Source of the DNA: Methanosarcinaceae archaeon
GTDB lineage: Archaea; Halobacteriota; Methanosarcinia; Methanosarcinales; Methanosarcinaceae
Reading direction: 5' to 3'
DNA length: 45,789 bases
Assembly (NCBI GenBank): GCA_020055655.1
Contig: JAIPUR010000021.1
Span: 1 to 45,789, forward strand
Both the position numbers and the translations under genes were made by a program. The first letter of the stretch is position 1. Each line of letters starts with the position of its first letter. The notes below the pieces were generated by a model. It worked only from the letters and a program-made list of their open reading frames with translations, did no database searches and was not told where the DNA came from. Shown piece by piece: positions 25,579 to 45,789 of the stretch.

Positions 25579-25619
25579 GTGCCGCCTGCAGCTTGTGGTT
25601 GCACCGGATTTAGAAACAT
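25579..25619. repeat. GC-rich bracket repeat 1 of 4
   Basis: GTGCCGCCTGCAGC then GTGGTTGCACCGGATTTAG. The same unit recurs at 26689, 40786 and 41907, all in the same orientation, at both ends of each toxin-antitoxin block. In copy 3 the core GCCGC-CT-GCGGC is a perfect inverted repeat. Confidence 0.7.
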
Positions 25620-25635
25620 ATATAATGAGACATGA

Positions 25636-25971: not shown

Positions 25972-25998
25972 TTTATATTACCTCATGCCTTGATCAAT

Positions 25999-26244: not shown

Positions 26245-26297
26245 TTATTATTCACCCCTTGAGTCTTACATGTAAGATAGGTAATCTGATATTATAT

Positions 26298-26495
26298 ATG
26301 AATTGTGATACTATAATAGAAAAGCAGATCAATAATTACAGAGAGGCTATTATCCCAATACTACTGAAAAATGATGTGCGTAAAGCCGACATCTTCGGCT
26401 CATTTGCTAGGAATGTGGCCAATATTGATAATGATATAGATATTCTTGTTCATTTCAAGGAGCGCATTCTGAAAGACGAAGTTAAGATACTATAA
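26298..26495 (+). pseudogene. Truncated MntA-type nucleotidyltransferase antitoxin
   Basis: 65 aa. It matches the intact MntA at 41165-41455 up to DIDILVHFK, then lacks 36 residues (in frame) and resumes at ERILKDEVKIL. The nucleotidyltransferase core GSFARN...DNDIDI is kept. The deletion ends fall in similar sequence (AAAGGGCGC versus AAGGAGCGT), suggesting slipped or microhomology recombination. It may still make a short protein. Confidence 0.8.
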
Positions 26496-26610
26496 AGGAT
26501 CCTGAAGTTTCATCCGACACATAATAGATCCTATCGAGAAGATAGAAGATTTCACATTCAATAAGAGAACGTAGAAGACTTTTTTGATGATATAAGAACA
26601 GAATATTTAG
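26492..26610 (+). pseudogene. HepT (HEPN) toxin remnant
   Basis: The start codon that overlaps mntA in copy B (CTATGAAGG) reads CTATAAAGG here, so ATG is lost. About 90 bases remain alignable to the hepT start (GATCCTATCGAGAAGATAG, GATTTCACATTCAATAAG) with a small frameshift, then about 260 bp of the gene are missing before the common downstream sequence (TAAGAACAGA). No functional toxin can be made. Confidence 0.75.
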
Positions 26611-26688
26611 CCTTTTTTGGACCTAAGTTTGAACTCTAGATTCTAAACTCCGTTCTCTTTTTTTTATTTGTGCACAACAATTATGAAT

Positions 26689-26726
26689 TGTACCGCCTGT
26701 CGGCGTGTGGTTGCACCGGATTTAAG
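26689..26726. repeat. GC-rich bracket repeat 2 of 4
   Basis: TTGTACCGCCTGTCGGCG then TGTGGTTGCACCGGATTTAA; same unit and orientation as at 25579. It closes copy A on the right. Confidence 0.65.
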
Positions 26727-26830
26727 TCTTTCACCTCATTGCCCATACAAAACAAAGAGGATATAGCCAGTATTTCTTACACTAAAAAAAGAAGTTGGAA
26801 GAGAGAAAATGATAGCAAATTTATAGAATT

Positions 26831-26953
26831 TCAGTTCAGACCAAGGATATTCCGTTTATCCTTTTTTTTCTCATCTTTCTTCTCTTTCTTTTTTGTCTTT
26901 ACGAACTCATCGACTTCCTTGATCCTGTGAATGTTGGTTTCTTTTTTCCCCAT
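26831..26953 (-). CDS. Small Lys-rich protein
   Basis: 40 aa: MGKKETNIHRIKEVDEFVKT, then an almost uninterrupted Lys/Glu/Asp run, ending KRNILGLN. GGAGGG eight bases before the ATG is the strongest SD of the region. It is 19 bp downstream of the coiled-coil gene and probably in the same transcript. Function unknown; may interact with the coiled-coil protein or nucleic acid. Confidence 0.6.
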   Translation of the reverse strand: MGKKETNIHRIKEVDEFVKTKKKEKKDEKKKDKRNILGLN

Positions 26954-26972
26954 ATTTTCCCTCCTGATTGGA

Positions 26973-28271
26973 TTATGCCTTATACTCTATCTCGCTCTCT
27001 TCGCCAAATACTTTTCTGACATTTGAAAGCAGAACTGACCTTTTCCTCTCCATATCATCCTTAAGGCTGTACAGATTTTTGCTCTCTGAATCTATGTCAT
27101 TCTTTGTGGAATCCACACAACTTCGATGATTTTCAATATCCTTTTCGATCTTTTCCCGCTCCTGATAGATGCTAAGATCATTGAGCTCTGCTACCATTTC
27201 CTCCTTCTCGGCAAGGTATGCATTCCTCTGTTCCACAAGTGAGGATGCTGCGTCCCCATCAGTGAGCACCTGCACCTGCATGAGTGTCTTTTCTCGCATC
27301 TGTTCCTTCAATCCGAGTTCTCCGCCCTCCATCCTGCTGGTGAGTTCTGCAAGGAAGGGACCAAGGTCCTTTTCAATAGCATTGACAGGGTCTTCTTTGA
27401 TGGACCTGAGTATTTTCCTGTTCTCGGGCGATAGCACAGCTCTTTCATTATCATCCTGTTTTTCCATTCTGGAAATTGCCTTAGAGAGCGGTGTGAACAA
27501 CCTCCTTGCCTCAGATACAGTATCTGCAAGTCTGCCGTCAATTTCTTTTATCCCAGATCCCAGCTCTTTTGCCCTTTCGAACTCCTTGCTACTCTCAAGT
27601 TCTGCAAGTCGGGAATCGCTCTTCGACAGTTCCTCCTTTGCATTCTCATATATGGAATCCAGCTCAGACATCCTCTTTGTGCTCTTCTCCGTCTCCTCTT
27701 CGATCATCCTGATATCATCGATAGCTTCTGATATATGCTGCAGTTCGTGGATATTTTCTACCCCCTGCATTATTGAGGAATTGAGCTCATCAAGAGTATC
27801 TTCCAGTTCTGCAAGACCCTGGTTGATCTTCTGGTATTGCTGTGGATAGATAGCTTTGATATACATCAGACTCCGGCTGGTGTTATCAAGAACTGTCTTG
27901 AGGGTCGATTTTGCCTCCTGAAAAAATTGAGATGCAGCTACCGGTGATGTATTCCCCGGGAGCTTCAGTTTGTCCTGGATGAGCTTAAGGTTATGGGCAA
28001 GATTGTCCCTGTTGGAGTCGCCAATTTTCTCTCCCCTTTTGCTGACATTCTCTATAGGTTCTGCATCAAGAAGTTCCTTCTTTAAGTCATCAAGCTCCTT
28101 CAGGGCATGTCGTATCGCTTCGTACCCATCCCTGACAACGGGTTTCAGGCCATCTTCCTCATCTCTTGCCCTTTTTTTAACGATGCCGGCAAGTTCCCCG
28201 AACTCAAAAACAACTGAATGAGATCGTTCTTTTTCCTGCTTTTTTCCAAAAAGCCTTTCAATGAACTTCAT
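26973..28271 (-). CDS. Long coiled-coil protein of unknown function
   Basis: 432 aa, no family recognised. MKFIERLFGKKQEKE start, then charged heptad-like helices over almost the full length, strongest at about 45-75, 150-250 and 340-425, without signal peptide or membrane helices. It looks like a soluble structural or scaffold protein. A Gly/Pro-containing segment (LPGNTSPVAA, residues ~104-113) may be a hinge. It heads a two-gene transcript with the 40-aa Lys-rich protein. A 226-aa frame on the other strand is a shadow. Confidence 0.82.
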   Translation of the reverse strand: MKFIERLFGKKQEKERSHSVVFEFGELAGIVKKRARDEEDGLKPVVRDGYEAIRHALKELDDLKKELLDAEPIENVSKRGEKIGDSNRDNLAHNLKLIQDKLKLPGNTSPVAASQFFQEAKSTLKTVLDNTSRSLMYIKAIYPQQYQKINQGLAELEDTLDELNSSIMQGVENIHELQHISEAIDDIRMIEEETEKSTKRMSELDSIYENAKEELSKSDSRLAELESSKEFERAKELGSGIKEIDGRLADTVSEARRLFTPLSKAISRMEKQDDNERAVLSPENRKILRSIKEDPVNAIEKDLGPFLAELTSRMEGGELGLKEQMREKTLMQVQVLTDGDAASSLVEQRNAYLAEKEEMVAELNDLSIYQEREKIEKDIENHRSCVDSTKNDIDSESKNLYSLKDDMERKRSVLLSNVRKVFGEESEIEYKA

Positions 28272-28442
28272 ATCTTCAAATACATTACGTGATGTGAATT
28301 TAAAGGTCTATTGGAAGACCGGGACCTATTAGTATAAGTGATCTTAGGTTCAATTATGAACTAGACCAGTAACCATAACTAATATTCATGATAATTACCC
28401 GAAACTTTTTTTAATTGGCAGAACTATTAGTAATTAATAATT

Positions 28443-28646
28443 ATGAACAATTGTATTACTGAAGAAGTAAACAATAAAACAGTTGGTGTTAAGTATATGG
28501 AATCTATGATAAATTGGGAATACGCAACAGAACATATGGATCGCGACAACCTTGAGAATCAGCTTTTCTATCTTGGAAACCGTGGTTGGGAACTGGTCTC
28601 CATCTGGGATGAAAAGGCCATCTTCAAGCGCGAAAGAACCAATTGA
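28443..28646 (+). CDS. Small DUF4177-like protein
   Basis: 67 aa. WEYATEHMDRDNLENQLFYLGNRGWELVSIWDEKAIFKRE matches the pattern of DUF4177 (beta-alpha-beta with GWELV). The function of this family is unknown. A second start at Met 19 or 22, after GGTG, is possible. Confidence 0.65.
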   Translation: MNNCITEEVNNKTVGVKYMESMINWEYATEHMDRDNLENQLFYLGNRGWELVSIWDEKAIFKRERTN

Positions 28647-28803
28647 TAAACTATTATCAGAAATACAGGTACATGATACCTGTTATCTTTTTCTTTTAAG
28701 ATATATTCTTTCGACCTTTTATTTAGAGTCCATCTAAGTTTTTGGCAAAGATATAAACCATTTACTCTTATTCCTCATTTATGGATAGGTTGGAGAGAGT
28801 AAG

Positions 28804-28866
28804 ATGATTGATAAAACAATAATAGAGGACTTCAATTCCCACACAAAGTTGAAGATCTTATGTTAA
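28804..28866 (+). other. 20-codon micro-ORF, possible remnant gene start
   Basis: MIDKTIIEDFNSHTKLKILC with SD GGAGAG eight bases upstream and an AT-rich promoter-like region. It runs into the 3' end of the convergent antiporter gene. It has the signals of a real gene start but no body, so it could be the 5' stub of a gene cut by rearrangement. Confidence 0.25.
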
Positions 28867-30909
28867 CAGCTGATCATCCGTACAATCTACTGATGATCCG
28901 GCATTATTACCTTCTTCCATTAATCGTCTAAGCTTACACAGACTCTCGGGTTTCCCGAGTACTATCAGCATGTCCCCAGACATAAGTTGTGTATTGCCTC
29001 CAGGGTTCTCTATGATCTCATCATCCCTGTGTATGGCCAATACCGTTGCATCATGAAGCTTTCTGAGATCAATATCCTTCAGAGTATTTCCATGGAGCAT
29101 GCAATCCTCTTTTACCTTGAAAGATGTTACATCCACCCCGGGCATGCCTTCCTTGAGATCACATTTGCCCCCATTTATAATAGGGTGCTTCCTCAGCATC
29201 GAATAGCCGTCAGCACGCATCTCCCTTGTGAACTTGTAGATATCCTCTTCAGGTACCAGGTATTTTTTAAGAAGGCGGCTAAATATCTCTACGGAGGTTT
29301 CATATTCCTCAGGGATAACTTCGTCAGCACCCAACTTACGGAGATGATCGATCTCATTCATATAGCGAGTTCTTGCAATGATATATATATCAGGATTTAC
29401 TCTTTTTGCGACATCTATTATTTTCCTGGTAGCAATAAAATCAGATATACCTACCACAAGTACCCTGGCTGACTTTATGTTAGCGTTATCAAGGACAAGC
29501 TCATGTGTTGCATCTCCGTAGAATATCCTTTCCCCTTGTTCCCTCTCATAACGCACGGTTTCGGGATTCATTTCTATGATCACACACGAAATACCTGCAT
29601 TATTTGCAGCATTGGACACTGTCTTTCCATTAAAACCATAGCCTATGATGATAAGGTGATCCTGCAATTTTTCATCTTCCTTTTCTGGTGCCAGGGTCGT
29701 TGAGTACAGGCCGTTGATCAATATGGCATTCTTAGTTCTTTTGAGAATACTGGCTGAGAGACTGTGTGAGGATGTCATCACAAAAGGAGTGGCTGCCATG
29801 GTGACTATTGATACAGCAAGGAAGGTCTGATACAGTCCACCGTTGAGCAATCCGTACTCACGACCAACGCTGGAAAGTATGAATGAGAACTCACCTACCT
29901 GTGACAATGTCAGACCGGTTATGATGGTTGTTCTAAGGGGATAGCCCAATATGAAAGTAACAATACCCGAGATCATTGACTTCAGAAGAATAACAGCAAG
30001 CGCCAATAGAAGCAGGATGCTTATGTTCTCAATAAAAAAACTGACATCCAACAACATCCCTATGGATACAAAGAAAAAGCTTATAAAGACATCCTTGAAG
30101 GGTAGCATGTTACCTATAGCCTGATGGCTGTATTCAGATTCAGATATTATCAGACCTGCCAAAAATGCCCCCAGGGCCAGTGACAAACCAGCTTTGGCAG
30201 TTAGCCATGCGGTCCCGAATACTATGAAAAGTATTGCCAAAAGGAAAAGTTCCCTGTTTTTTGTCCTGACGATCCTGAAGAGCAATGCAGGCACTACCCA
30301 CCTTGCACTGATGATCACAAAGAGAACTATTCCAAGCCCTTTAAGAAGGAAAATGGTTGCACTGTCACCTGATTCTGAAGTAACCCCTGCCAGGATGGGT
30401 GTCAGGAGTATCATGGGAACGATAACAATATCCTGAAATATCAGTACCCCAAGAGATATTTTGCCGTGAGGAGTGTTCATTTCTCCGTTTCCCTGGAGCA
30501 ACTTGAGCACAATGGCTGTACTGCTAAGCGATACGAGGAAACCCAAAAAAAGAGCGGTGCTGGAACTATAACCCATGTAAAGTGATATATAATAGATCAA
30601 TGCGGTTGTGATCGCAACCTGCAGCCCACCACCTATCAGCACAAATCTTTTGATGTCCCACAGTTCCCTGATAGACATCTCAACACCGATAGTGAACAGC
30701 AACAGGATGATCCCGATCTCTGCCAGTATCTCTACCTGCCCGACATCACTAATGATACCAAGCATGTGAGGTCCTGCGATAATTCCCGTTACAAGAAAAC
30801 CAAGAACCGGAGAAAGTTTTATCCGGTGGAATAATAATAGGATCAATACTGACAAACCAAATATGATCTCAATATCAGTAAAGAGTGTCAGATCCATGTT
30901 GCCAGCCAT
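28858..30909 (-). CDS. CPA2-family cation/proton antiporter with TrkA-N and TrkA-C domains (KefB-like)
   Basis: 683-aa membrane transporter for K+ or Na+ against H+. Residues 1-395 hold about 12 helices with GVEMSIRELWDIKRF, FLVSLSSTAIVLKLLQ and SLALGAFLAGLIISESEY of the Na/H exchanger fold. RCK/TrkA-N follows (IIGYGFNGKTVSNAA, GDATHELVLDNANI), then TrkA-C (VKEDCMLHGNTLKDIDLRK...SGDMLIVLGKPE). NAD(H) or ligand binding to the RCK would gate transport. It suits an organism from a saline or fluctuating habitat. Confidence 0.94.
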   Translation of the reverse strand: MAGNMDLTLFTDIEIIFGLSVLILLLFHRIKLSPVLGFLVTGIIAGPHMLGIISDVGQVEILAEIGIILLLFTIGVEMSIRELWDIKRFVLIGGGLQVAITTALIYYISLYMGYSSSTALFLGFLVSLSSTAIVLKLLQGNGEMNTPHGKISLGVLIFQDIVIVPMILLTPILAGVTSESGDSATIFLLKGLGIVLFVIISARWVVPALLFRIVRTKNRELFLLAILFIVFGTAWLTAKAGLSLALGAFLAGLIISESEYSHQAIGNMLPFKDVFISFFFVSIGMLLDVSFFIENISILLLLALAVILLKSMISGIVTFILGYPLRTTIITGLTLSQVGEFSFILSSVGREYGLLNGGLYQTFLAVSIVTMAATPFVMTSSHSLSASILKRTKNAILINGLYSTTLAPEKEDEKLQDHLIIIGYGFNGKTVSNAANNAGISCVIIEMNPETVRYEREQGERIFYGDATHELVLDNANIKSARVLVVGISDFIATRKIIDVAKRVNPDIYIIARTRYMNEIDHLRKLGADEVIPEEYETSVEIFSRLLKKYLVPEEDIYKFTREMRADGYSMLRKHPIINGGKCDLKEGMPGVDVTSFKVKEDCMLHGNTLKDIDLRKLHDATVLAIHRDDEIIENPGGNTQLMSGDMLIVLGKPESLCKLRRLMEEGNNAGSSVDCTDDQLLT

Positions 30910-31007
30910 ATTTATCGTACTGTAATCTGATTGCTTATTAAAAAATGTTTGTATGGCTCTTTACAATTCGCGACACCTCGACAAATATGAGACCATCAAA
31001 TTAGAAT

Positions 31008-31124
31008 GGCTCTGTAGAAAAACTCCAAATTCAACTGATGATACTTTGTATATTATTTTAAACATTTATTGTTTTGCACAATTATGGCTGAGTGTAATGG
31101 TTTCAATATGATTTCTACATCGCC
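31008..31124. mobile_element. MITE-like element, copy 1 (117 bp)
   Basis: Left end GGCTCTGTAGAAA (31008-31020), right end TTTCTACATCGCC (31112-31124), 11 of 13 matching the inverse of the left end. Near the right end the interior (GTGTAATGGTTTCAATATG) resembles the element at 40500 (GTGATTTCAATAGG). No ORF. It lies in the 424-bp gap before the histidine-kinase gene; the rest of the gap is AT-rich with no gene. Confidence 0.6.
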
Positions 31125-31333
31125 ACAAACTTGCTAGTAACTAGATACTCATTAATTGGTCCTATCCCAGCAACTTTTTAACAGATATTCAAATGATAGT
31201 TACATATATACTACATTATTTATATAATATACTAGATCTCATGCTAACCTTAAAATTAATCTAAGATCAATAATAAAGGGATCTGGATAAGAGAAAATCC
31301 GAGTCAGTACAAGATAGTAATCCGGTGGGAATT

Positions 31334-34300
31334 ATGACTAGCTCACATACAGACATAAGTGAAATAAAAAAGTTTGAAGAAAATCTGCTTCTCTGGGAAA
31401 AGCGACTAAATATTTTTTCAGACATTCTGCATTCCAGATATAATTCCATCCAGGAATACCTTGATTTCGCCCTTGAAAGTGCAATCAAGTTGACTGATAG
31501 TAAGTTTGGCTATATCTATCATTACAGTGAATCAAAAAAAGAATTTACTCTGAATACATGGTCTAAAGGCGTAATGAAAGAGTGTGAAGTTGAGGAAACA
31601 CAGACTGTTTATAAACTGGATGATACAGGCATCTGGGGAGAAGCTGTCAGGCAGCGTAAGTCTCTCATAATAAATGATTTTAATGCGCCAAATCCTCTAA
31701 AAAAAGGTTATCCAAAAGGGCATGTCCAAGTTCACAGATTTATGACTGTGCCAATTTTCCGAAATAACAAAATAGTGGCAGTTGTGGGCCTTGCGAACAA
31801 AGGATCAGATTATAAGGAAATAGATGAACTACAGTTAACTTTGCTAATGGACTCTGTATGGAACATGATAAGACAGATAGGTGCTGAAGAAGCAATACGC
31901 GAGAGTGAGGAAAAATATCGCGGCTTATTTGAGAATGCCCTTAGTGCTGTGGCAATCCATAAAATAATCCTGGATGAATGTGGAAAACCCAGTGACTATG
32001 TTTTTCTTGATGCTAATGAAGCCTTTGAGACTCATACAGGACTCAAAGTTGAAGATGTTGTTGGAAATTGTGCAACTGAGGTTTTACCAGGTATAGAAAA
32101 AACGTCTTTAATTGAAATATATGGTGATGTTGCACTTAACGACACTAATGTTAATTTTGAAATCTTCCTCGAACCATTACAGCGACACTATACCATAAGT
32201 GCTTATCAGGTAGATCCGGGAATATTTGCGACGGTCTTCCAGGACATAACTGAGCGCAAAAATGCAGATGAACTGGTAAAAGAAATAGAACAACGTTTCA
32301 GAAAGTTAGCAGAAAATGCTGAAGACATGATATATAGCTATGAATTCTCTCCTAAAAGAGGGTTTACCTACGTTAGTCCGGCTTCAACCAGGATCACAGG
32401 CTATACGCCTGAAGAACATTATGAAGATCCTGATCTAGGGCTTAAACTGGTGCATCCGGATGATGCTGATATTCTCAAGAGCTTGTCAAAAGTAGATTCT
32501 AATGACCGAACAACTGTAGTTCTTCGTTGGATTAAAAAAGACGGACAAATTATTTGGACAGAACAAAAGAATTTTTTTGTTTATGATGACAATGGAAATC
32601 TTATTGCCCTGGAAGGAGTTGCCAGGGATATAACCGACACGAAAAACGAACAAAAGCGGGATGATTATATCAAAAATATCATTCTTGCAAATCGAAATAT
32701 CAACCAGATTATTGTAAAAGAACATGATCCGGAAATTCTTATCCAGAAAGCCTGCAGGAAACTGACAGAAGCACTAGGGAGTTACAGTTCCTGGATTGCG
32801 CTTGTTGATCATGAGAAGAATGTTACAGGAACAGCATATTTTTGTTCCGATCTCTCCAATGGTTTTGAACAGTTGGAACAACAGTTAAAAGAAGGCATAT
32901 TTCCACAATGTATGCAGCAAATTTTGGAAAAAGATGAAACTTTGATAATAGAGGAGTTTCCTAAAAAATGTATAGAGTGCCCTCTCGAATGTAACTATTC
33001 AAATTGTGTATCTTTATTTTATCGGATGCAATATGCTTCCAAATTATATGGTGTTCTGTCGGTTACAATTCCGCGAAAATATACCGACTTAGATGAAATA
33101 CATGACCTGTTCAGGCAAGTTTCAGATGATCTGGGTTTTGCTCTCTATAAGATCGAAACAGAAAAAAAGAGGGAAAAATATGAAGCCCATCTTCATCTGA
33201 TGACACAGAATATGAATGATGTTATAATTGAAACAAATGTTGAAGGACTATATTTATATATCTCTCCTTCCCACAAACGAATTCTTGGCAGGGGTAAAGA
33301 ATTATTGGGTAAAAACTGTATGAAGGACCTGCATCCTGATGATATTGCCGTTGTTGCTAGCGTATTTAAAAAAATTGTTGAAACCGGTGAGCAGGGGCAA
33401 GCTGAGTACAGATATATGCATCCTGAAAAGGGTTATATTTGGCTGGAATCAATTGCTAATTATTATGTTGATAAAAATAATAAAATAAGGATACTTATCA
33501 ATACCCGTGATATTACTACCCGAAAGTTGACAGAAAAAGAACTTGAAAAGGAAAGTTCTCTACTAAAAAGCCTTCTAGATTCAATTCCAGATATTATATT
33601 CTTCAAAAATCCCGATGGCGTATATATGGGATGTAATTCCGAATTCTCAAATCTTGTTGGCAGGAAAAGGGAAGATATCATTGGTAAAACCGATTATGAA
33701 CTGTTCAATAAAGACCTTGCAGACTTCTTCAGAATGAATGATCTATTAATGATGAAAGAGGGTAAAACCAGGCATAATGAAGAATCGGTAGTTTATCCTG
33801 ATGGAAGGAATGTAATGCTCTACACCACCAAAGCTCCTTTGAAAAACTCTGCAGGGACGATAATTGGTCTGGTGGGTGTGGGTCGAGATATAACTGATAA
33901 CTGGCAGTCACAAGAAACTATTAAAGAACTGAACAGCCTTAATCAATCCACAATTGACTCTCTGGATGCAAATATTTGTGTACTTGATGAAGCAGGAAAT
34001 ATCATTAAGACGAATAAATCATGGAAGGATTTTGCTATTGAGAATTCTGCAGATATTGAAAAAGTGAGCGAGGGGACAAATTACATCAAGATCGCAAAGA
34101 ATTCTGTAGGCAAGGATAGTGATATAGCCTGGAAGTTTGCAAAGGGAATAGAAGATGTGATTATGGGGTTGAGTGATGAATACGACTTTGAATATCCATG
34201 TCACTCGCCAGATGAAAATAGATGGTTCATAGGAAAAGTTCGTCCCTTTCAAAGTACTACAGCTTCTTTCCCCCGCAAAGTCGTAATATCGCATCTAAAT

Positions 34301-36346
34301 ATTACTGAACGTAAAGTTGCTGAGGAAAATTTGAAGAACTATGCATCTGAGGTTAAAAGAAAAAATCTGGAACTTGACAATGCCCTCCTAAAAGCAGAAG
34401 ATGCCACCAGGGCAAAGAGCGAGTTTTTGGCCAATATGTCCCATGAGATACGCACACCTATGAACGGTGTTATAGGCATGACCAGTCTGCTTATGGACAC
34501 TAAACTTGGTGAAGAGCAAAAACATTATGTTGAAACGATAAAGACAAGCGGAGAGTTATTGCTTAGTCTTATAAATGATATATTGGATTTCTCCAAGATC
34601 GAAGCAGACAAGTTAGATCTGGAAGTTGTTGATTTTGATCTAAGCGATATTCTTGATGATTTTGCTTCAATGCTGGCTGTAAAGGCTAATGATAAAGGAT
34701 TGGAATTCATCTGTGCATATGAACCCGATGTTCCTGTTCACATCAAAGGTGATCCAAGTCGCTTGCAGCAAATATTGATGAATTTGGCAGGAAATGCTAT
34801 TAAATTCACAGAGAAAGGTGAAATTGTTTTGCATGTAAGCCTTGAATCCGAGACGGGATCTCAAGCCATATTGCATTTTTCTGTCAAGGATACTGGTATA
34901 GGCATTACTGAAGATAAAATCGAATCTCTTTTTGATACCTTCTATCAAGTGGATGCATCAACAACAAGAAAATATGGTGGAACAGGTCTTGGTCTTGCCA
35001 TCTCCAAAAAACTTGTTGAGATGATGGGGGGAGAGATAGGCTTGAAAAGTAAGGAAGGATCTGGATCCGAATTCTGGTTTACAATGCCTTTTGCTAAGCT
35101 TTCAGATGTAAAGCCCAAAGACAATTCATTGAACCATATAAGAGATTTACGCGTACTTATAGTGGATGATAATGCAACAAATCGTGAATTTTTACGAGTT
35201 TGGCTTTCATCACGGGGAGCTAAAGTGGAAGAGGCTGAAAATGGTGCCATGGCACTACAACAACTCTATCAGGCAAATGAGAACAACAAATCATTTGATG
35301 TGGCACTTCTTGATCTCCAAATGCCAGGAATGGATGGCATTACTGTTGCCAATGTGATTAAATCAGACGAGAAGCTCAAAGATATTTCTCTTATTATGCT
35401 GGCATCTCCCGGACAGCGACCCACTTATGATAAAATCGATGAAAATCAGTTAACTGATTTTATTACTAAGCCGATCAATCATGCATTGTTGCTTGAGAGA
35501 TTATCATATATTCTCAAAGATGGAGCGAATACAAACAGATCACATCACAATGTTGATCAAAATAATTATTATGAAAAACCAATTAAAGGACTTAGAATTC
35601 TATTGGCTGAAGACAACACTGTGAACCAGAAAGTTGCACAAAGCATGCTAAAGAAGATGGGGCACATCGTAGACACTGTAGCCAATGGTAAGGAATCAAT
35701 AAAAGCACTTGAGATGATTCCCTACGATCTTGTACTTATGGATGTGCAGATGCCTGAAATGGATGGTCTTGAAGCTACTAAACATATCCGGCATCACAGT
35801 TCATCTGTTCTCAAAAAGGATGTGCCTATAATTGCCATGACAGCACATGCTATGAAGGGAGATAAAGAGCGTTTTATAGAGGTTGGGATGGATGATTATA
35901 TCGCAAAACCGATTTCAATGCATTCCTTCATAGAATTGATCGATAAATGGTCAAAGGAATTGAATGTGGAAAGTTGGAAAGTTGCCAGATCTGATGAAAC
36001 AATTCATCAAACAGATACACCTATTTTTGACAAGCAAGCATTTATGGAAAGAGTGGATAACGATGTTGAACTGGCACATCACCTAATTTCTACTTTTTTG
36101 AAACATACGCCACAGCAGATAGAATCCCTGAAGGAAAGTATAGAAAGTTCAAATGCCCAGGAGATAAGTAATTATGCGCACAGCATTAAAGGTGCATCAG
36201 CGAATATGGGTGGTATGGCTTTAAGTTACATTGCTGGTGAAATGGAAAAAGCAGCAATTTCAGGCAATGTTGAGGAAGCTACAGGAATGCTGGCAGAAGT
36301 GGAAAAGCAGCTTAGATCGCTTATAAATCATCTGCGAGAGCTATGA
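31334..36346 (+). CDS. Hybrid sensor histidine kinase (GAF-PAS2-GAF-PAS3-HisKA-HATPase-REC-REC-Hpt)
   Basis: 1670 aa, no membrane helix, so a cytosolic sensor. Order: GAF (~36-175), PAS (~194-305), PAS (~321-435), GAF-like domain with a cysteine cluster [13 protein letters not shown] (~442-602), PAS (~619-729), PAS (~737-852), PAS-like (~870-992), HisKA with [12 protein letters not shown] (His1037), HATPase ([25 protein letters not shown]), receiver 1 ([11 protein letters not shown], Asp1327), receiver 2 ([11 protein letters not shown], Asp1470) and Hpt ([10 protein letters not shown], His1616). The ATG at 31334 follows SD GGTGG; the GTG at 31325 is within it. A full phosphorelay lies in one chain; the output partner is not nearby. 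The Cys cluster could hold metal or a cofactor. Confidence 0.94.
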
Positions 36347-36385
36347 AATAGCCGCTCTTCCTTTTTAGTAACCTGAGAGTTAATG

Positions 36386-36459
36386 GGCTCTGTAGAAAAA
36401 CTGCTTATTTTTTAATTATAATGCCAAAATAAAAGATGAGTTAGTTTTTCTACAGAATC
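36386..36459. mobile_element. MITE-like element, copy 2 (74 bp), between convergent genes
   Basis: GGCTCTGTAGAAAAACT (36386-36402) pairs with AGTTTTTCTACAGA (36443-36456) followed by ATC where GCC is expected. The shortest of three copies; its ends form a 14-bp stem. It sits between the stops of the histidine kinase and MscS genes, where it could act as a bidirectional terminator. Confidence 0.6.
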
Positions 36460-36471
36460 TAAATATTATGA

Positions 36472-37365
36472 TTATGACTCATGTTGCAATTCTCCAATGT
36501 CCTTCTTATAGACAATGGTTCTATATGGGAAAGGTATCTCTATTCCTTCTGAATCAAAGCGCTTCTTGATAGATTCTTTCAGCTCACAACCAGTAATAAA
36601 CGCAACTGAACGGTCACGTATCCAAATATACAATACCATGTTCACTGAAAAATCTGCAAGTTCAGTCAGCAGTACGGAGATCTCATTGCCGGAATATCCA
36701 TTGGATTTATATTTTAGAATATCTTTATGGGCCATGACCTCAGGATGCTTGCGAGCCTCTTCGATCATAATTCTACGTGCAAGGTCGATATCAGAATCAT
36801 AACTAATTCCTATTTCAATGGTCCAGTTAACTGTGGGATCATCAATTGACCAGTTAATAACAGCCTCATCACTAATTATATGGTTAGGAATATTAAGCCT
36901 TCTATTATCCCAAGTAAGGATCTTTGTATAACCAAGTGTGATATCTTTTACCCTTCCATATTCTCCATGAATTGTCAGCAGGTCACCAACACGAAATGGT
37001 CTGAAAGTCGCAAGCGAAACACCTGAAATTATATTAGCTAGTGTGCTCTGTGCAGCCATACCAATTACTATACCTGCAAACCCCGCTCCCGCAAAAAGTG
37101 CAATGGATAAGTCACGAAGACCTGGAATACTAAATATTATAACAATTAAGCCAATGAAATAGACCATTGCAACTATAATACGACGTACAAGTCCGTAAGC
37201 TGTCTCATCAATCTTCATTTTCTTGCTTGCCAGAACAAAGTATGCTTCCAGCATCCTGTTAATAAGCTTAGCCAATAAAAATGTCGATATTAATACTAAA
37301 ACAACAAAAACAATAGAAGCAAGTTCCCATGAGATCAAAGATGAATCAATATCCATAATATTCAT
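36472..37365 (-). CDS. mscS: Mechanosensitive channel, MscS family
   Basis: 297 aa. Three N-terminal helices, the last of them the Gly/Ala-rich pore helix (ALFAGAGFAGIVIGMAAQSTLANIISGV), then the cytosolic beta domain (FRPFRVGDLLTIHGEYGRVKDITLGYTKILTWDNRRLNIPNH) and the alpha/beta vestibule ending ESIKKRFDSEGIEIPFPYRT. It opens on hypo-osmotic shock to release solutes. A typical small archaeal MscS with no extra domain. Confidence 0.95.
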   Translation of the reverse strand: MNIMDIDSSLISWELASIVFVVLVLISTFLLAKLINRMLEAYFVLASKKMKIDETAYGLVRRIIVAMVYFIGLIVIIFSIPGLRDLSIALFAGAGFAGIVIGMAAQSTLANIISGVSLATFRPFRVGDLLTIHGEYGRVKDITLGYTKILTWDNRRLNIPNHIISDEAVINWSIDDPTVNWTIEIGISYDSDIDLARRIMIEEARKHPEVMAHKDILKYKSNGYSGNEISVLLTELADFSVNMVLYIWIRDRSVAFITGCELKESIKKRFDSEGIEIPFPYRTIVYKKDIGELQHES

Positions 37366-37726
37366 GGAGCATAATTAGACAAAAGGGGTATACATATTTG
37401 ACCATCCATTAATAGAAAAATCAAAATCATAAAATAAATTGTAATATTCTTTTTAACATCGTGCATGAATGTACATATATTCACCCGAATTAAAGTTAAA
37501 TTTCTACCGTAGAATGCATTCATTGAATCATATTTACATTTGTTCAGAAAGCAAAAAGATCAACAAGTTTGCTCGACTTGAATCATTTTTTGGACAAAGA
37601 GTATACTATTATGCTTCTTAAGCTGCTCACCAAAGAGAAATAAAGGTGGCTTGCGCAATTGAGCAATTATTCAATGCTTTTTATTTTGATAATCCCGCAA
37701 GGCTTTTTGAGGGCGTTTTTCCAATC
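37366..37726. other. Intergenic region with one weak 35-codon ORF
   Basis: 361 bp between mscS and the 3' end of glgP. A plus-strand frame 37514-37621 encodes MHSLNHIYICSESKKINKFA and 15 more residues ending VYYYAS, with no SD or convincing promoter. It may be a decayed gene or chance. A GC-richer imperfect inverted repeat near 37695-37720 may terminate glgP. No other feature seen. Confidence 0.3.
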
Positions 37727-39445
37727 TCAATAGCAGCAATATGCATTGAGCACATATTCCTGTATCATCCTATGAGTATTGAAGAAAGAACCATTGATGG
37801 CAATGGAATTGCGCATCACATCGATGAAACTGTTACGGTCATGATAGTACATAGGAAGGATTATGTTCTCCAGTTTGTCATACATTGATACCGCGTCCTG
37901 TGAGCGCTTGTTCTCTTCAGTGACCGTTGAAGCACCATTACCTATTGCCCAGCCTGTCACTCCTTCTATATTTCCTTCTATCCACCATCCATCCAGCACG
38001 CTCAGGTTGGGAACACCGTTTAAGGTAGCTTTCATCCCACTTGTACCGGAGGCTTCCTTTGGGGGTTCTGGAGTGTTAAGCCAGATATCAACCCCTGAGG
38101 TTATCAGTGCTCCAAGGCCCATGTTGTAATTCTCAAGGTAAACTATTTTTATATCGTTGGCAAGGGCATGTTTTGCATGGAATATCCTTTTTATTAGCTC
38201 CTTACCGCCATGGTCTGCCGGATGAGCTTTACCTGAAAAGATCACCTGGATCTTCCCGACATTGTTTGAGATATTCCTTAAGCGCTCAATATCGTGGAAC
38301 AGCAGGTCAGCTCTCTTGTAGTTAGCAGCCCTCCTTGCAAAACCGATGGTCAGCACATTCTCATCCATATATAACCCGGTTTTACTGCTAACATGGTCCA
38401 TTAGTTTCCTTTTGGCTTTCATATGAGCCCCCCATATCTCTTCCTTTGGGATACTCAATGCATAGCGAAGACTGAAATTGTCTTTTTGCCACATGGGGAT
38501 ATACTGATCGAACAATTTACGGAATGGATCTGAGACCCATGTGCCTGCATGAACGCCGTTGGTAATGGAACTGATAGAATAGCCCGTAAAGAGTTCCCTC
38601 GAAATTTTTCCATGACTTTTGGCCACTCCGTTTATATAACGACTCATGTAAAGGGCCAGATATGTCATATCGAGGGTATTTTCATCATACAATACCCCCG
38701 ACAATCCAAAGAAATCATCCCTTTTACCAAGGACCATCTCTGCCATATCCCTGGTGAATATGTCATGGGCTGCAGGAACGATGGTATGGGTGGTGAATAC
38801 ACATTTTTTATTAACTTCTTTACAGTCCTCTTCCAGTACATGATCCCTTCCGGCTTTTTTAGCTTCTTCATCAAGCAGTTCCAGGGTAAGGAGTGCAGAA
38901 TGTCCTTCGTTCATATGGTAACTGCTGATATTCTTATAGCCAAGCTCATTGAGCATCCGAGCTCCTCCTACACCAAGGATCAGTTCCTGGCATAATCTAT
39001 AGTAGTTATCTCCTCCATAGAGGTGATGGGTGAGTTCCCGATCCCATTCAGAATTCTCGGGCAGATCTGCGTCAAGGAAGTAGACAGGAACTACAAAACC
39101 GCCGATACCCTTTACTTCATATTTCCAGGCCCTTAAATGAACTGTTCTTCCATGGACGACTACATGGATCCTTGCGGGCATCTCCTGCATGAGCTCTTCC
39201 ACAGGCCAGGGATCTGACTCCTCATACTGCCATCCATCTTTCCCCAGTTTTTGGAAAAAATGCCCCATCCTATAAAGAAGAGTAACTGCGATCATAGGTA
39301 CCTTGAGATCTGCAGCCGAGCGTATGGTGTCACCTGCAAGTATCCCAAGTCCTCCACTATAGGTGTGTATCTTTTCGTCAATACCTATCTCCATTGAAAA
39401 GTATGCCACACCATTTCTGTCATTGAACATATCCTGCATTTTCAT
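37727..39445 (-). CDS. glgP: Alpha-glucan (glycogen/maltodextrin) phosphorylase, short type
   Basis: Phosphorolysis of alpha-1,4-glucan to glucose-1-phosphate with PLP. 572 aa, the short archaeal/thermophile-type phosphorylase. [26 protein letters not shown] near the start, [14 protein letters not shown] with the active-site His, [25 protein letters not shown] and the PLP segment [25 protein letters not shown] are all intact. Second gene of an operon with pfkB (15 bp gap). The pair looks acquired; methanogens usually use ADP-dependent glycolytic kinases. Confidence 0.94.
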
Positions 39446-39460
39446 CCTCCATATCCTAAA

Positions 39461-40408
39461 TTACATTGGTTTCATAGCTGCTGTTATTATTTTTGTATAG
39501 AGGCGTTCAGTATCTTCCTTTCGGCATAATTCGGTCCCTGGTGTCATCACAGCAGCAGAACCCGCAGCTATCCCGTATAGAACGGCTTCCCGCAGCTTTT
39601 CTCCCCTAGACAGACCCAGGACGATACCAGCCACCATACTGTCCCCAGCTCCCACTTTGCTGCTGATGGGAACGGTTGGCGGGACAATGTGCTCCATGTT
39701 ATCCCTGGTAACGAACAGAGCACCGGCTGCACCCAGGGATATGACCATCGTTTCACACTTTCCGTCCCTGATCATTCTCTGAGCTGCTTCTAATATCTGC
39801 AGCTCCTCTTTTATATCGTTTCCTGCAAAATCCCTGAACTCGCGGATGTTGGGTTTGATAAGATATACACCTTCCTGCAGCGCATGTTCAAGGGCTTCTC
39901 CGGATGCATCAACGATAACCTTTGCTCCTATATCATTCCCGATAAGTGCAACACGGGCATAGAAATCCGATGGCACACCTAAAGGAAGACTTCCACTGGC
40001 TACCAGATAATCCGGAGCAGGGCTGAGCGAGGAGATTTCTTGAAGGCACTGTTCCCATTCCTCCCGCTTAAGCTCAGGACCAAGCATTCCAAAGCGGAAC
40101 TGTTGTCCTGTGGACTCTTCAAGGACGATAAGGTTCTCTCGTGTAAATCCTTTTATAGGCAAGGACAGTTGATCGACTTCTTCCTTTTCCATAAGTTCAT
40201 TTAGCATCTTACCAGGCATGCCACCAGCAGGATAGACCAGCAGTGACTCTCCTCCAAGTTTTTTTATGGCCCTGGAGACATTAACACCTCCTCCACCAGG
40301 TTCATAGATGGCAGGGCCACAATACAGTTTGTGCTCAGCTATCACATGCTGAGTTCTAGTGCTTTTGTCAATGGCAGGATTCATATTCAGGGTAACGATC
40401 TTCTTCAT
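39461..40408 (-). CDS. pfkB: PfkB-family phosphofructokinase (Pfk-2-like)
   Basis: 315-aa ribokinase-fold kinase. TLNMNPAIDKSTRTQHV, then EPGGGGVNVSRAIKKLGG, PAGGMPGKML, TRENLIVLEESTGQQFRFGM and the catalytic SSKVGAGDSMVAG (Asp) closely follow the E. coli Pfk-2 (ATP-dependent 6-phosphofructokinase) pattern; 1-phosphofructokinase and tagatose-6-P kinase are the alternatives. First gene of the pfkB-glgP operon, which would take glycogen to fructose-1,6-bisphosphate with help from phosphoglucomutase and isomerase coded elsewhere. Confidence 0.9.
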   Translation of the reverse strand: MKKIVTLNMNPAIDKSTRTQHVIAEHKLYCGPAIYEPGGGGVNVSRAIKKLGGESLLVYPAGGMPGKMLNELMEKEEVDQLSLPIKGFTRENLIVLEESTGQQFRFGMLGPELKREEWEQCLQEISSLSPAPDYLVASGSLPLGVPSDFYARVALIGNDIGAKVIVDASGEALEHALQEGVYLIKPNIREFRDFAGNDIKEELQILEAAQRMIRDGKCETMVISLGAAGALFVTRDNMEHIVPPTVPISSKVGAGDSMVAGIVLGLSRGEKLREAVLYGIAAGSAAVMTPGTELCRKEDTERLYTKIITAAMKPM

Positions 40409-40499
40409 GGCTAATTCTCCATTGATACTATTTGAATGATATTAAGATCCCCATGATATTTCATAACTGCGAACTGGACCGAAAATCATACAATCCTTT

Positions 40500-40629
40500 G
40501 GCTCTGTAGAAATCCTCGATATTCAGGCGTTCAAGCAAAGCAATAAAACTTCAATATGTTTTTCAAGATGTCGATTATTCTATAAAATATAGCCGCAGAT
40601 AGTGATTTCAATAGGTTTTCTACAGAGCC
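40500..40629. mobile_element. MITE-like element, copy 3 (130 bp), perfect 13-bp ends
   Basis: GGCTCTGTAGAAA at 40500-40512 and TTTCTACAGAGCC at 40617-40629 are perfect inverted terminal repeats. The interior is AT-rich without ORF. Its right end abuts the first base of the duplicated GT4 tail (about 40631), so it marks the junction of the segmental duplication. Ends like these belong to a DDE-type insertion sequence, but no transposase is in the window. Confidence 0.75.
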
Positions 40630-40630
40630 G

Positions 40631-40700
40631 CAACATGGGCAACGTATGCTTTGACTGGGATATTCTGTGTGTTGGGGATATTGATGCCAGGAAGGATATG
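40631..40700 (+). pseudogene. Duplicated 3' fragment of the GT4 glycosyltransferase gene
   Basis: About 70 bp matching 25403-25470 (ACATGGGCAA, GTATGCTTTGACTGG, TTGATGCC.GGAAGGATAT) with scattered substitutions and a TGA end in place of TAA. It is the left edge of the duplicated segment and codes for nothing by itself. Confidence 0.75.
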
Positions 40701-40785
40701 AGTTTCTGCCTGGAAGCAGGAACTTAGTATTAAATTTAAATCAAGCTAAGCATTTGAGATTCATTTCTACTGATATGTAGGGAAT

Positions 40786-40826
40786 ATGCCGCCTGCGGCG
40801 TATGGTTGCACCGGTTTTAGAAACAT
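40786..40826. repeat. GC-rich bracket repeat 3 of 4
   Basis: GCCGCCTGCGGCGTATGG followed by TTGCACCGGTTTTAGAAACAT. The inner GCCGC-CT-GCGGC is a perfect inverted repeat. Most complete copy of the unit. Confidence 0.7.
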
Positions 40827-40853
40827 GCACATTACGACATGATCACTTGTTGA

Positions 40854-41090
40854 TCATTTTCCTGTGATGAGCTGTATGAGCCGGTCTTCCACCTCTTTTA
40901 ATTTAGCATCATTCAATGTTCCAAGTTCGTATTCGATTATATCCCCTGTTGCAGTGAATATCTTATTTGTCCGGATCAGACTATTAACTTTAAGCTCAGC
41001 ATTTGCAAGATCACTTTTTCCAAGTTCTACTTCATAAGGATTATCCCAGAGCTTTGAAAAGGACTTTTCTGATGCCATGGCAGCACCCAT
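40854..41090 (-). pseudogene. MazE-MazF deletion fusion
   Basis: A 78-codon frame whose first 18 residues (MGAAMASEKSFSKLWDNP) come from the middle of the antitoxin and the rest (YEVELGKSDLANAELKVNSL...) from the C-terminal two thirds of the toxin. Compared with copy A, the end of mazE, the gap and the start of mazF are deleted, and the AbrB domain upstream is gone. The toxin's N-terminal loop is missing, so it should be inactive. No SD. Confidence 0.8.
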
Positions 41091-41164
41091 CTTCCACTCG
41101 ATAATCCTGCACGAAACCTTATAAGAATAATAACCAATATGAATATGAAATAAATTGTGATATT

Positions 41165-41455
41165 ATGGCAGAAAAACAAATCAATAATTACAGAGAGGCT
41201 ATTATCCCAATACTACTGAAAAATGATGTGGATAAAGCCGGCATCTTCGGCTCGTTTGCAAGAAATGAGGCCAATGTTGATAGTGATATCGATATTCTTG
41301 TTCATTTCAAAGGGCGCAAAGGCCTCTTTGATCTTGCCAAACTGGAAATGGAGCTTGAAAAGGAAGCTCAAAGAAAGGTAGAAGTTATCACTTACGATTC
41401 CATTAACCCCCTTATTAAGGAGCGTATTCTGAAGGAAGAAGTCAAGATACTATGA
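41165..41455 (+). CDS. mntA: MntA-type minimal nucleotidyltransferase (antitoxin)
   Basis: 96 aa. GSFARNEANVDSDIDILVHF is the GSx10DxD core of minimal nucleotidyltransferases, followed by KGLFDLAKLEMELEKEAQRK and the third acidic position in VEVITYD. In MntA/HepT systems this enzyme AMPylates and silences the HEPN toxin. The last bases overlap the hepT start (ATGA), so both are made together. Intact counterpart of the broken gene at 26298. Confidence 0.92.
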   Translation: MAEKQINNYREAIIPILLKNDVDKAGIFGSFARNEANVDSDIDILVHFKGRKGLFDLAKLEMELEKEAQRKVEVITYDSINPLIKERILKEEVKIL

Positions 41456-41817
41456 AGGACCCTGAAGTTTTCATTAAACATATTATAGATTCTATCGAGA
41501 AGGTAGAGGATTTCACATACAACAAGACCAGAGATGATTTTCTTGGTAATGTGCAGCTTCAGGATGCCACGATCAGAAGAATAGAGATCATCGGCGAGGC
41601 ATCAAAAAATATTCCAGAAGATTTTAAAAGACAATACCCTGATGTGCTGTGGAGTGAAATGGCGAGGACAAGGGATAAGCTGATCCATGGTTATTTCGGT
41701 GTGGACCTTGAACTTACCTGGGATATTATTGAACATGATCTGCCTGAATTAAAAGAGAAGATGATGCATATACTTGAGGAAATTGAATCACCGAGGATCC
41801 ATACATCAGATAGATAA
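41452..41817 (+). CDS. hepT: HepT-type HEPN ribonuclease toxin (DUF86)
   Basis: 121-aa all-helical HEPN protein. RDKLIHGYF provides the Rx4H motif with the following Tyr (Rx4HxY), which is the RNase site and the AMPylation target. RRIEIIGEASKNIPEDFK is typical of DUF86. Start overlaps mntA by 4 bp. The copy at 26492 is destroyed. Confidence 0.92.
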   Translation: MKDPEVFIKHIIDSIEKVEDFTYNKTRDDFLGNVQLQDATIRRIEIIGEASKNIPEDFKRQYPDVLWSEMARTRDKLIHGYFGVDLELTWDIIEHDLPELKEKMMHILEEIESPRIHTSDR

Positions 41818-41906
41818 GAACAGAGTTATAGGCCTTTCTTGGATTTAAATTAGAACTCTAGATTTTATACGATGCTCTTTTTAACTTGTTATCAGCAATT
41901 ATAGAC

Positions 41907-41940
41907 TGTGCCTTCTGCGGCGTATGGTTGTGACCATACT
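41907..41940. repeat. GC-rich bracket repeat 4 of 4
   Basis: GTGCCTTCTGCGGCGTATGG then TTGTGACCATAC; the most diverged copy, closing segment B on the right. Confidence 0.6.
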
Positions 41941-41978
41941 AAGTGATTAATTGGATTAATGTGGCTTGTAAGTTACAA

Positions 41979-42012
41979 TGAAAAAAGGAAAAGCACCGTA
42001 TTACGGGTGCTT
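41979..42012 (-). terminator. Terminator of the surface-protein gene
   Basis: AAGCACCGTA / TTACGGGTGCTT (41991-42012), a stem with one bulge, begins two bases after the stop codon; the minus strand continues TTCCTTTTTTC. Confidence 0.65.
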
Positions 42013-42013
42013 A

Positions 42014-45000
42014 TCATACAGTTTCACCGAAGCGACCTGAAACAATAGAAAGGTCCTGAATATTGACAATTCCATCCTGATTAACATCCCATCTTGGAAG
42101 GTTTGATTCGTATGTTAAACCGTAGTTCTGACCTACCAGAGTGATGTCAAGGATATTCACACTGCCATCTTCATTGACATCCCATCTTGGGTGCAGGTCC
42201 GTGATGGTTATTGTGTGTGTGGAACTTACATCATCTATGCCATCACTTACAATTGCTGTAATTGTATGTGTGCCTGCAGATGAGTAGTTCGTTACCCAGC
42301 TATAAGATCGGCTGGTGCTCACTGTTTCACCGTCGATCTTGATGATATAACTTAAACTCTGGTCATCTGCATCACTTGCATCCACATTTATATCAATTGT
42401 TGAAGATTCCTCGAATTCGGATCCTTCAGGAGGCTCAAACAGCGTGATCACAGGTGCATGATTCAGTTCTTCCACAGTTATCGCAACACTGACAGAATCA
42501 TTCAGATATCCATCTGTGACAGCAAAACCTGCAGTGTAAGTTCCGGCATCCCCTTCAGCAGGAGTCCAGCTAAAGCTTCCAGTGTTTGCATCAAATGTTG
42601 CAGATCCTGGCAAGGATGTAGCTGAGTAGCTGAGCTCATCACCATCCGCATCTGTTGCAGCTACAGTGAAGCTGATAGTATCTGTTTCATCTGCTGTGAC
42701 CGGCGGGATTGCATTGAACTGCGGTGCTGTGTCCACAAGCACTGTGGCATAGTTCACGTCATATGAAGCAGGATTTGAGTCAGCATCACTCAGTATTACA
42801 TTGGACAGAGTGAGATCGACCTCTCCGCTTGCACTTCCTGCTATCATGTCCACCGTGGCCATGACGCCTGCATTTGAAACTGTACCTGAGCCCACTATGG
42901 CAGAGTAAACACCGCGAATGATACTATCGAAGTTATCGATCTGGCCAGTCTGGAAGGTGCTTGATAGTCCATCCACATCAAAGAGGCCACCATCCTGCAC
43001 CGAACTTGCTGATGCAATACTGTTGTAGTGAAGATTGAACTGGGAACCTGAAAGTGGTTCTGCAGGATCTATGTACACATCCAGTGAGAATGGCTCACCT
43101 GGCTCAACCACAGTTGTTGATGGAGAGATGCTTATGGATGATATTGCAGGAGCTTCTTGTTCTGGGACTGTTACAGTCCATTTTCTGGAGATCGTTCCTG
43201 CTGAAGCTGTACCATCGAATCTGACTGTGTGTGTTCCAGCTGTGTCCCAGTTCTGTGTGTAAGTTGTTGCTCCGCTTGCAACTTCTGCATCATTGAGGTA
43301 CCATTTGGATGTAGTGAATGTTTGATCAGAGCTTACTTCAAAGTTTGTGGAAGCTCCGACTGTAGATTCGAATGCTGGAGCTGTTGGAGTGAATGATAGG
43401 CCTGTGCCTGAGGTTGTTGGGGCTTGCTCCGCACCATTTACATCAACATTCCATGTTTTGAAGACTACACCATTATCATTGCGTCCTTCGAACAATATAC
43501 TATGAGAACCTTCCAAAGCAGTCCAGGAATACTCAAGTGAGTTGGATGAGACCTGAACACCATCTACATACCATTTCATAGTTGTAAATGATTCATCAGC
43601 CCAAACTCTGAATGTTTTAGTGTTGCCTGTACTGAATACATTATTATCAGCAGGTGCAAAACCATAACTTGCCAGACCTGAATTGCCGGCCCCCCTGCTC
43701 AGGGTTCCGTTTGTGCCTGCACCAACAAGCCAGTCACCCTTCCCGGTTGAAGTGCTAAGGCTGACAGTACCAGCGTAATCGGTAACAGGCTGTCCATTGG
43801 TATCGCTGGCCTGGATAGTAACCGGAGCAGGAGAGCAGGTAACTGCGTTCCCGCCGCTTATTATGCGGAAGTGATCGAGAGCATTCGCCGCGTCCGGACA
43901 GCTGAAAAGCACCGAAGCCGGCACAATCTCAAAGTCATTAGAACCTGGCGTCTGCCAGGACAGCTCAGCCACCGCGCCACCGGTATTCTCATACATCTCC
44001 ATTTTCAGTGCATAGGCTTGGCCCTGCTGGAGAGTAATTACTCCCGATTCATGGTTGGTCGGCGACTGAAGCACCCATTCATCGATAATCGGGTTGTTAA
44101 GATCCCGAACCCACAAGCGAACACCATCATCGGTCCGGGTCTGAAACCGATAGTCGCCAGTCTCACGCGGTACGATGAAACCGCTCCATCGAATTGAAAA
44201 TCGATCATTATCCACCACACCCGGAATTGGGCTCCCACTGCCGTAGTCATTATCAATGTTGGCGGAGGTTTCTTGAGCGACAGTCGGCCCGGTAAGATCT
44301 CGGTTGTTCCAATAAAAAGTGGTCAGGCCGGTACCACCGCCCTCAAATTCGACGGTTGCCGGATTGGGAGACATTACCAAACCACCAACATCCTGAAGAT
44401 CAGACACGGTCACTTCGTAGCTTTCATCGCCGGACAAGGGCTCGGAAAGATTGAGCAGAATGCTAAAACCGGAGGATTCCAGTGAGGCTGAGTCAACACC
44501 GATAACATTGCCGGAGCCTACTTCCTCTATAGAATAGAACAGCGGGTTCTCGACCGAAGCAGCATCCAGCATGCGCGATCGCGGTGTCTGGGCAAATTGA
44601 ACTCTCAGCAAATCAGACGCGCCGCAGACCGCTGAGGCCGACTCAAGTGCTGGTGCAGACACAGGCAAACAGGCAAACAGGTTCGACTCGGGAATGACAT
44701 CGAATCCTCCGCCGCTCGGCGTATTCCACTGAAGTTCCGCTACCGCCTGACCGCCGTTCTCGTAAAACTGCATTCGTATTGCATATCGCTGGCCAGCTTC
44801 CAGAAAAACACCTTCACTTGTCCGATTGGCCGCGGAGTGATCGTTCCAATCGTCGATGATCGCCTGATCAAACGCCAGATCACCGACCCAGAGGCGTACA
44901 CCGTCGTCAGTTCGAGTTCGGAATCGGTAAGTTCCAGACACTGGCACCTCGATCGCTCCCTGCCACTGAACGGCAAAGTCGTTATCATCAACAACAGGGT

Positions 45001-45511
45001 CTGGCGAGCCGTTGCCCCAGTTGAAATCCACCTCCGGGTCCAGCCGGGTCAGAACCGGAGATTCCGGAAACGAGTCGTTACTCTGGTAACCGTTATAGAA
45101 AGTTGCCTCGAGGCCATTCTGATAGCAGGTGCACTGGACGACATCGGTCCAGCGCTCACCAGCTGCTACCTGGCCCACCTCTACAGTTGCCCCGTTACTC
45201 AGGTTCTCCGACCTGAATCCCAACTCCGTAATTTCGGAGACCTCCGCACTCGGGTTTTTGATAATAGTTGCTGAAGGGGTAGGTGGCGGTGAGTCCGTGC
45301 ATTGGGGATTTACCCATAGCCGTCCCTGGTTGTAAAAATCGAAGCCGCCCTTATCGAAGCGAGCCACCAACAAATAGGTTTGACCGGGTTGAAATTGCGT
45401 GGAATACGCCGCCTCCCTATCCAACCGCACGAAGAAATCAGAATCACCGGAACCACCCTCATCGACTTTGACACCGAACTGCGGCGAGTCACCGAAGTTT
45501 GGCCGTTGCAC
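42014..45511 (-). CDS. Mosaic surface protein: PA14 x2, MshQ-like segment, Ig-like repeats, cohesin, dockerin; 5' end missing
   Basis: 1165 aa from a GTG at 45511, but the frame and its homology-like sequence (DFLGFWVQRP) continue upstream to about 45,532, and there is no signal peptide, so the true start is lost. N-terminal lectin-like piece, two PA14 domains (~155-285, ~395-540: RTRTDDGVRLWV and QTRTDDGVRLWV), then LDHFRIISGGNAVTCSPAPV of the MshQ/DUF6701 type. From about residue 615 it changes character: two Ig-like repeats with KWYVDG/KWYLND, a cohesin (EPGEPFSLDVYIDP...), cadherin-like and PKD-like domains and two dockerin loops (DVNEDGSVNILD, DVNQDGIVNIQD). The DNA is GC-rich above about 43,660 and ordinary below. 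Either an inter-domain transfer fusion or an assembly chimera. Confidence 0.7.
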   Translation of the reverse strand: MQRPNFGDSPQFGVKVDEGGSGDSDFFVRLDREAAYSTQFQPGQTYLLVARFDKGGFDFYNQGRLWVNPQCTDSPPPTPSATIIKNPSAEVSEITELGFRSENLSNGATVEVGQVAAGERWTDVVQCTCYQNGLEATFYNGYQSNDSFPESPVLTRLDPEVDFNWGNGSPDPVVDDNDFAVQWQGAIEVPVSGTYRFRTRTDDGVRLWVGDLAFDQAIIDDWNDHSAANRTSEGVFLEAGQRYAIRMQFYENGGQAVAELQWNTPSGGGFDVIPESNLFACLPVSAPALESASAVCGASDLLRVQFAQTPRSRMLDAASVENPLFYSIEEVGSGNVIGVDSASLESSGFSILLNLSEPLSGDESYEVTVSDLQDVGGLVMSPNPATVEFEGGGTGLTTFYWNNRDLTGPTVAQETSANIDNDYGSGSPIPGVVDNDRFSIRWSGFIVPRETGDYRFQTRTDDGVRLWVRDLNNPIIDEWVLQSPTNHESGVITLQQGQAYALKMEMYENTGGAVAELSWQTPGSNDFEIVPASVLFSCPDAANALDHFRIISGGNAVTCSPAPVTIQASDTNGQPVTDYAGTVSLSTSTGKGDWLVGAGTNGTLSRGAGNSGLASYGFAPADNNVFSTGNTKTFRVWADESFTTMKWYVDGVQVSSNSLEYSWTALEGSHSILFEGRNDNGVVFKTWNVDVNGAEQAPTTSGTGLSFTPTAPAFESTVGASTNFEVSSDQTFTTSKWYLNDAEVASGATTYTQNWDTAGTHTVRFDGTASAGTISRKWTVTVPEQEAPAISSISISPSTTVVEPGEPFSLDVYIDPAEPLSGSQFNLHYNSIASASSVQDGGLFDVDGLSSTFQTGQIDNFDSIIRGVYSAIVGSGTVSNAGVMATVDMIAGSASGEVDLTLSNVILSDADSNPASYDVNYATVLVDTAPQFNAIPPVTADETDTISFTVAATDADGDELSYSATSLPGSATFDANTGSFSWTPAEGDAGTYTAGFAVTDGYLNDSVSVAITVEELNHAPVITLFEPPEGSEFEESSTIDINVDASDADDQSLSYIIKIDGETVSTSRSYSWVTNYSSAGTHTITAIVSDGIDDVSSTHTITITDLHPRWDVNEDGSVNILDITLVGQNYGLTYESNLPRWDVNQDGIVNIQDLSIVSGRFGETV

Positions 45512-45532
45512 CCAGAAGCCGAGAAAATCATT

Positions 45533-45789
45533 ATAAACAAATTGCTATTAAATATTCAATTGATAATAACACAATAGATGGTTTGTTTTGGAAAAATGAT
45601 AATGTTTTATTTGATAGAAATGTTACATCTCTGTTAAATGTATTAAACGCTTATATTAGATTAGAAGCAATAAAAAAATATCCAGAATTAGATATAAGAG
45701 AAGTTCAACTTAGAGATGATGAAACCGAAAATATTAAGTTAAGAGTTAAATATAAACCTAGTAGAGATGTTGATTTTACAGTTGAAAGA
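45533..45789 (+). CDS. Partial, very AT-rich coding fragment of unknown origin
   Basis: An open frame runs to the window end without ATG: YKQIAIKYSIDNNTIDGLFW near its start and VQLRDDETENIKLRVKYKPS later, with no stop. The amino-acid pattern (charged helices, hydrophobic spacing) looks like real protein, and third positions are almost all A or T. It begins abruptly beside the GC-rich gene, so its 5' part is missing. Family not recognised. Confidence 0.4.

Follow-up and report, generated by a model that had tools for sequence, protein, structure and literature searches.

Does a methanogen encode a surface protein whose one half is archaeal and whose other half is bacterial? The question is raised by the right end of contig C13, the whole of which (45,789 bp, no excerpt) is the window analyzed here. 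A single open frame runs on the minus strand from a GTG codon at 45,511 to 42,014 and encodes 1165 a.a.; its upper part has two PA14 matches in Pfam (1.1e-48), and its lower part matches He_PIG, Big_7, and Dockerin_1. The original prediction, made from the sequence alone, placed an in-frame switch from archaeal to GC-rich, PA14-bearing bacterial sequence near 43,650, and this switch is confirmed by the single frame, the split in Pfam content, the drop in GC, a GC3 change point, and the position at which similarity to congener proteins starts. Two readings of it had been offered: either a methanogen adhesin has taken up domains from bacteria, or the contig was misjoined during assembly. The data presented here speak for the second, and what looks like an archaeal-bacterial hybrid is almost certainly a chimera, produced by assembly (or in the library), in the right-hand end of C13.

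Boundaries of the composite open frame

The right end of C13 consists of three composition blocks, with GC contents of about 42, 55, and 24%, which are separated by two joins (Table 1). Neither join is more than 2.2 kb away from the contig end (~2.1 kb for join 1 and 277 bp for join 2). At join 1, the GC content, ~55% in the bacterial block, goes down to ~40% over a stretch of ~100 bp (43,650-43,720), the GC3 change point falls at 43,663-43,729 (log-likelihood ratio 26.3, vs. at most 8.8 in 500 permutations), and the similarity to congener orthologues begins at 43,663-43,681. Join 1 is placed at 43,660-43,690 rather than at a single base, as no bacterial parent was found. At join 2, which the original prediction did not mention, the GC content falls from 55% to 24.5% at ~45,512, which is also where the coordinates of the feature noted earlier come to an end, and the visible microhomology is no longer than ~8 bp (CAGAAGCC).

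Table 1. Features of the right-hand end of C13.
Feature	Position	Strand	Evidence
Methanogen surface protein, C-terminal half	42014..43672	-	Congener orthologues (~60% identity), Pfam, native gene neighbours
Join 1, change from archaeal to bacterial sequence within ...GLASYGFAPADN...	43660..43690	-	GC profile, GC3 change point, start of congener similarity, DNA comparison
Foreign bacterial fragment, interior of a PA14 protein	43664..45512	-	Two PA14 domains, bacterial relatives, codon usage
Join 2, bacterial to phage	45505..45520	.	L141 alignment: similarity starts at 45,513, background before
Foreign viral fragment, interior of a 1127-a.a. protein (residues ~334-427)	45513..45789	+	IMG/VR identity

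The archaeal part and its orthologues

In addition to its He_PIG, Big_7, and dockerin domains, the archaeal part of the frame contains KWYVDG-type repeats and a cohesin-like segment. Of the archaeal surface domains predicted below ~43,650, the dockerin is upheld by Dockerin_1, but the cohesin is cohesin-like by eye only, as no Pfam cohesin model matched the open frame at E ≤ 1. Orthologues from the same genus share ~60% identity with the archaeal part across 549 residues (E 1.5e-216). The whole congener proteins are 1100-1550 residues long, but their alignment with the window starts no higher than 43,663 (43,681 for L143) and goes downward from there; they extend roughly 580-1010 residues further upstream of the match, a continuation that is itself archaeal sequence. 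This upstream sequence closes with ...YTITAVIP...ITGFAPSEDNP..., in place of which ...GLASYGFAPADN... is found in the window. The join segment (GFAPADN) fits both sides, as had been predicted for FAPADN. In two congener genomes, the orthologue directly adjoins genes that match window positions 18,025-25,467; therefore, the archaeal part of C13 is native. The ~16.5 kb that separate the surface-protein gene from this cluster in the window (25,500-42,000) have no match in the corresponding regions of the two congeners, and may represent an inserted variable region.

What the locus really encodes is a surface protein of ordinary type from a Methanosarcinaceae-like methanogen, and the N-terminal half of that protein is missing. 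Searches of the other contigs of the genome with the N-termini of two congeners as queries did not recover this half, and a search of the genome for the congeners' upstream neighbour genes, which belong to species-variable regions, did not find them either. The absence of the true N-terminal half from the other contigs counts against a chimera, as it leaves the archaeal gene with no demonstrated continuation; this failed search is nevertheless uninformative, because the N-termini differ between species. Across the genus, the C-terminal ~550 residues of the surface protein are conserved, and the N-terminal ~580-1010 residues are species-variable (L142, L144, and L145). From the alignments, it looks as if differing front ends shared a single dockerin-bearing tail.

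The bacterial block and the viral tail

The bacterial block spans 1.85 kb, has a GC content of ~55% and a GC3 of 0.56, and shows no visible native gene start. Its relatives in the species-genome collection come from Verrucomicrobia, Phycisphaerales, Ignavibacteriales, and Herpetosiphon (30-42% identity), and the related loci in plasmids are likewise bacterial. In 60 related genomes, nothing matches the block over its full length, and only weak or partial PA14 matches were obtained (G058, G020, and G027); nor does it have a counterpart in the 26 other genomes of the genus, save for one weak PA14 match. A bacterial parent genome was not found among the 60 related genomes, the species-genome collection, and the plasmids, a search that had Gammaproteobacteria outside its range. 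The pattern TVSLSTSTGKGDW...GLASYGFAPADN within the block presumably resembles an MshQ-like segment; no MshQ-type model was matched, and an 81-a.a. segment had no plasmid match, again with Gammaproteobacteria outside the search.

A genuine interdomain fusion would require that the methanogen, or a recent ancestor, exchanged the N-terminal half of the protein for PA14 domains from bacteria and now makes a hybrid adhesin. Such an event would account for the single open frame across the join and for the segment that fits both sides, both of which speak against a chimera, and PA14 domains do occur, as the weak and partial matches above, in some related archaeal genomes. However, the bacterial block abuts a phage slice at the contig end and, lacking a start, does not amount to a whole gene; the fusion is seen in none of the congeners and is absent from all 60 related genomes (a set that does not include other strains of the same species); and similar foreign tails are found on other contig ends. 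The open frame across join 1 is a chance-level coincidence, with odds of about one in three, and, since the frame is also open across a join on contig C26 (see below), its being kept in C13 is nothing special. The fusion is therefore highly improbable, and the proposal that a methanogen adhesin took bacterial domains is unsupported in view of the phage slice, the congeners without the fusion, and the other chimeric ends. Just as improbable is a narrower version, in which the in-frame gain of PA14/MshQ-like domains is real and the sole artefact is the outer phage join at 45,512.

The last 277 bp of C13 (GC 24.5%) are open on the plus strand up to the contig end, and are 89% identical in DNA and 91% identical in protein to the IMG/VR viral contigs L140 and L141. 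The terminal peptide had no match in a phage database, in contrast to IMG/VR, and the phage proteins of L140 and L141 were not assigned a function by PHROGs. The 1127-a.a. viral protein contains internal repeats at 4,620-4,920 of L141, where shifting the DNA against itself by 72 or 144 bp gives a similarity of about 68-70%. Within the whole genome, only residues 334-427 of this protein are present, at the end of C13, and none of the rest was found. Phage-like DNA at the contig end would also be expected if a real mobile element or provirus had inserted into the surface-protein gene, and had carried bacterial and phage DNA into the methanogen. On the other hand, the viral contribution to the genome amounts to a 94-residue slice of one protein, the bacterial block comes from within a PA14 protein and is not a mobile-element gene, and the three blocks show no relationship in base composition, so that an insertion of this kind has very little to recommend it. 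As assembled, the end of C13 is made of archaeal, bacterial, and phage pieces, the latter two being internal gene slices from unrelated sources, and the fusion is not a complete gene, since its 5′ side runs into the phage slice and the contig end with no start region.

Foreign DNA at other contig ends, and comparison with known systems

All 96 contig ends of the assembly were profiled for composition over 1.5 kb each. Foreign DNA was detected on at least 4 of them, C13 included, and the pieces come from several unrelated organisms. For instance, the last ~950 bp of C1 (L091, G000:C1:67218-68717, about 550-1500; GC about 11-26%) carry a T2SSF (gspF) piece that abuts an archaeal gene for tRNA-guanine transglycosylase (TGT_C2). 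This piece has in-frame TGA codons at glycine positions, scoring 84 bits when TGA is read as Gly and 65 when it is read as Trp, and is interrupted by stops under the standard code; the use of TGA for glycine is the code of Gracilibacteria/Absconditabacteria. At the start of C26 (L068, G000:C26:1-1500), the first ~1.05 kb (1-1050; GC 61-75%) look alphaproteobacterial, include a Urease_beta fragment, and apparently consist of two pieces, one of which holds that fragment. This foreign DNA cuts galE after ~80 of 332 residues, with the frame across the join remaining open; the congener galE (355 residues) matches C26 at residues 46-126 only, and the remainder has no close match elsewhere in the genome. 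The third case is the start of C28 (L070, G000:C28:1-1500), where the first ~150-220 bp (GC 69% over the first 150 bp) encode part of subunit A (atpB) of a bacterial F-type ATP synthase and run into an archaeal gene for dihydropteroate synthase. Four more GC-rich ends, those of C3, C14, C22, and C29, proved to be archaeal rRNA genes and were rejected as candidate chimeras. The end of C44 (L134, G000:C44:129140-130639) has a GC of 0.49-0.64 over ~1.3 kb, with no rRNA match.

Chimeric contig ends are thus recurrent in this assembly. The recurrence of foreign tails, the two successive joins in C13, the gene slices, and the congeners without the fusion all argue that the C13 chimera arose during assembly or library preparation, and the alternative of an assembly join, as first suggested, gains further from the position at the contig end, the phage piece, and the congener orthologues. 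The methanogen surface-protein gene would have been assembled to about 43,660, beyond which the contig would run into the 1.85-kb bacterial PA14 fragment, then into the 277-bp phage fragment, and then stop. The joins were probably made at short shared sequences, such as GFAPADN, in a mixed-community read set, and the organism itself would then possess no hybrid adhesin. As the microhomology at join 2 is at most ~8 bp and the bacterial parent was not found, the data favour a k-mer join no more than a chimera formed in the library.

The archaeal-bacterial mosaic protein is accordingly almost certainly not a real feature, and is without importance as a biological claim. The genome passes quality checks (99.9% complete and 0.9% contaminated), yet at least 4 of its 96 contig ends carry foreign DNA; therefore, where contigs of genomes of this kind end in hybrid genes, these should not be taken for horizontal transfer.

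Three known systems can be compared with this locus. The dockerin/Ig surface proteins of the same genus (L142, L144, and L145) likewise have Big/He_PIG domains followed by a dockerin, and 549 residues can be aligned to the archaeal part, but they possess their own N-terminal half, in whose place the window has foreign DNA. Among bacterial proteins, those with PA14 domains and MshQ-like segments share two PA14 domains with the block and presumably also its MshQ-like pattern; in contrast to these proteins, the block is an internal fragment only, and belongs outside the methanogen genome. The chimeric contig ends of metagenomes show the same abrupt shifts in composition, taxonomy, and gene content, with partial genes on either side of the joins. 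From these, C13 differs in nothing essential, and its open frame across the join is incidental.
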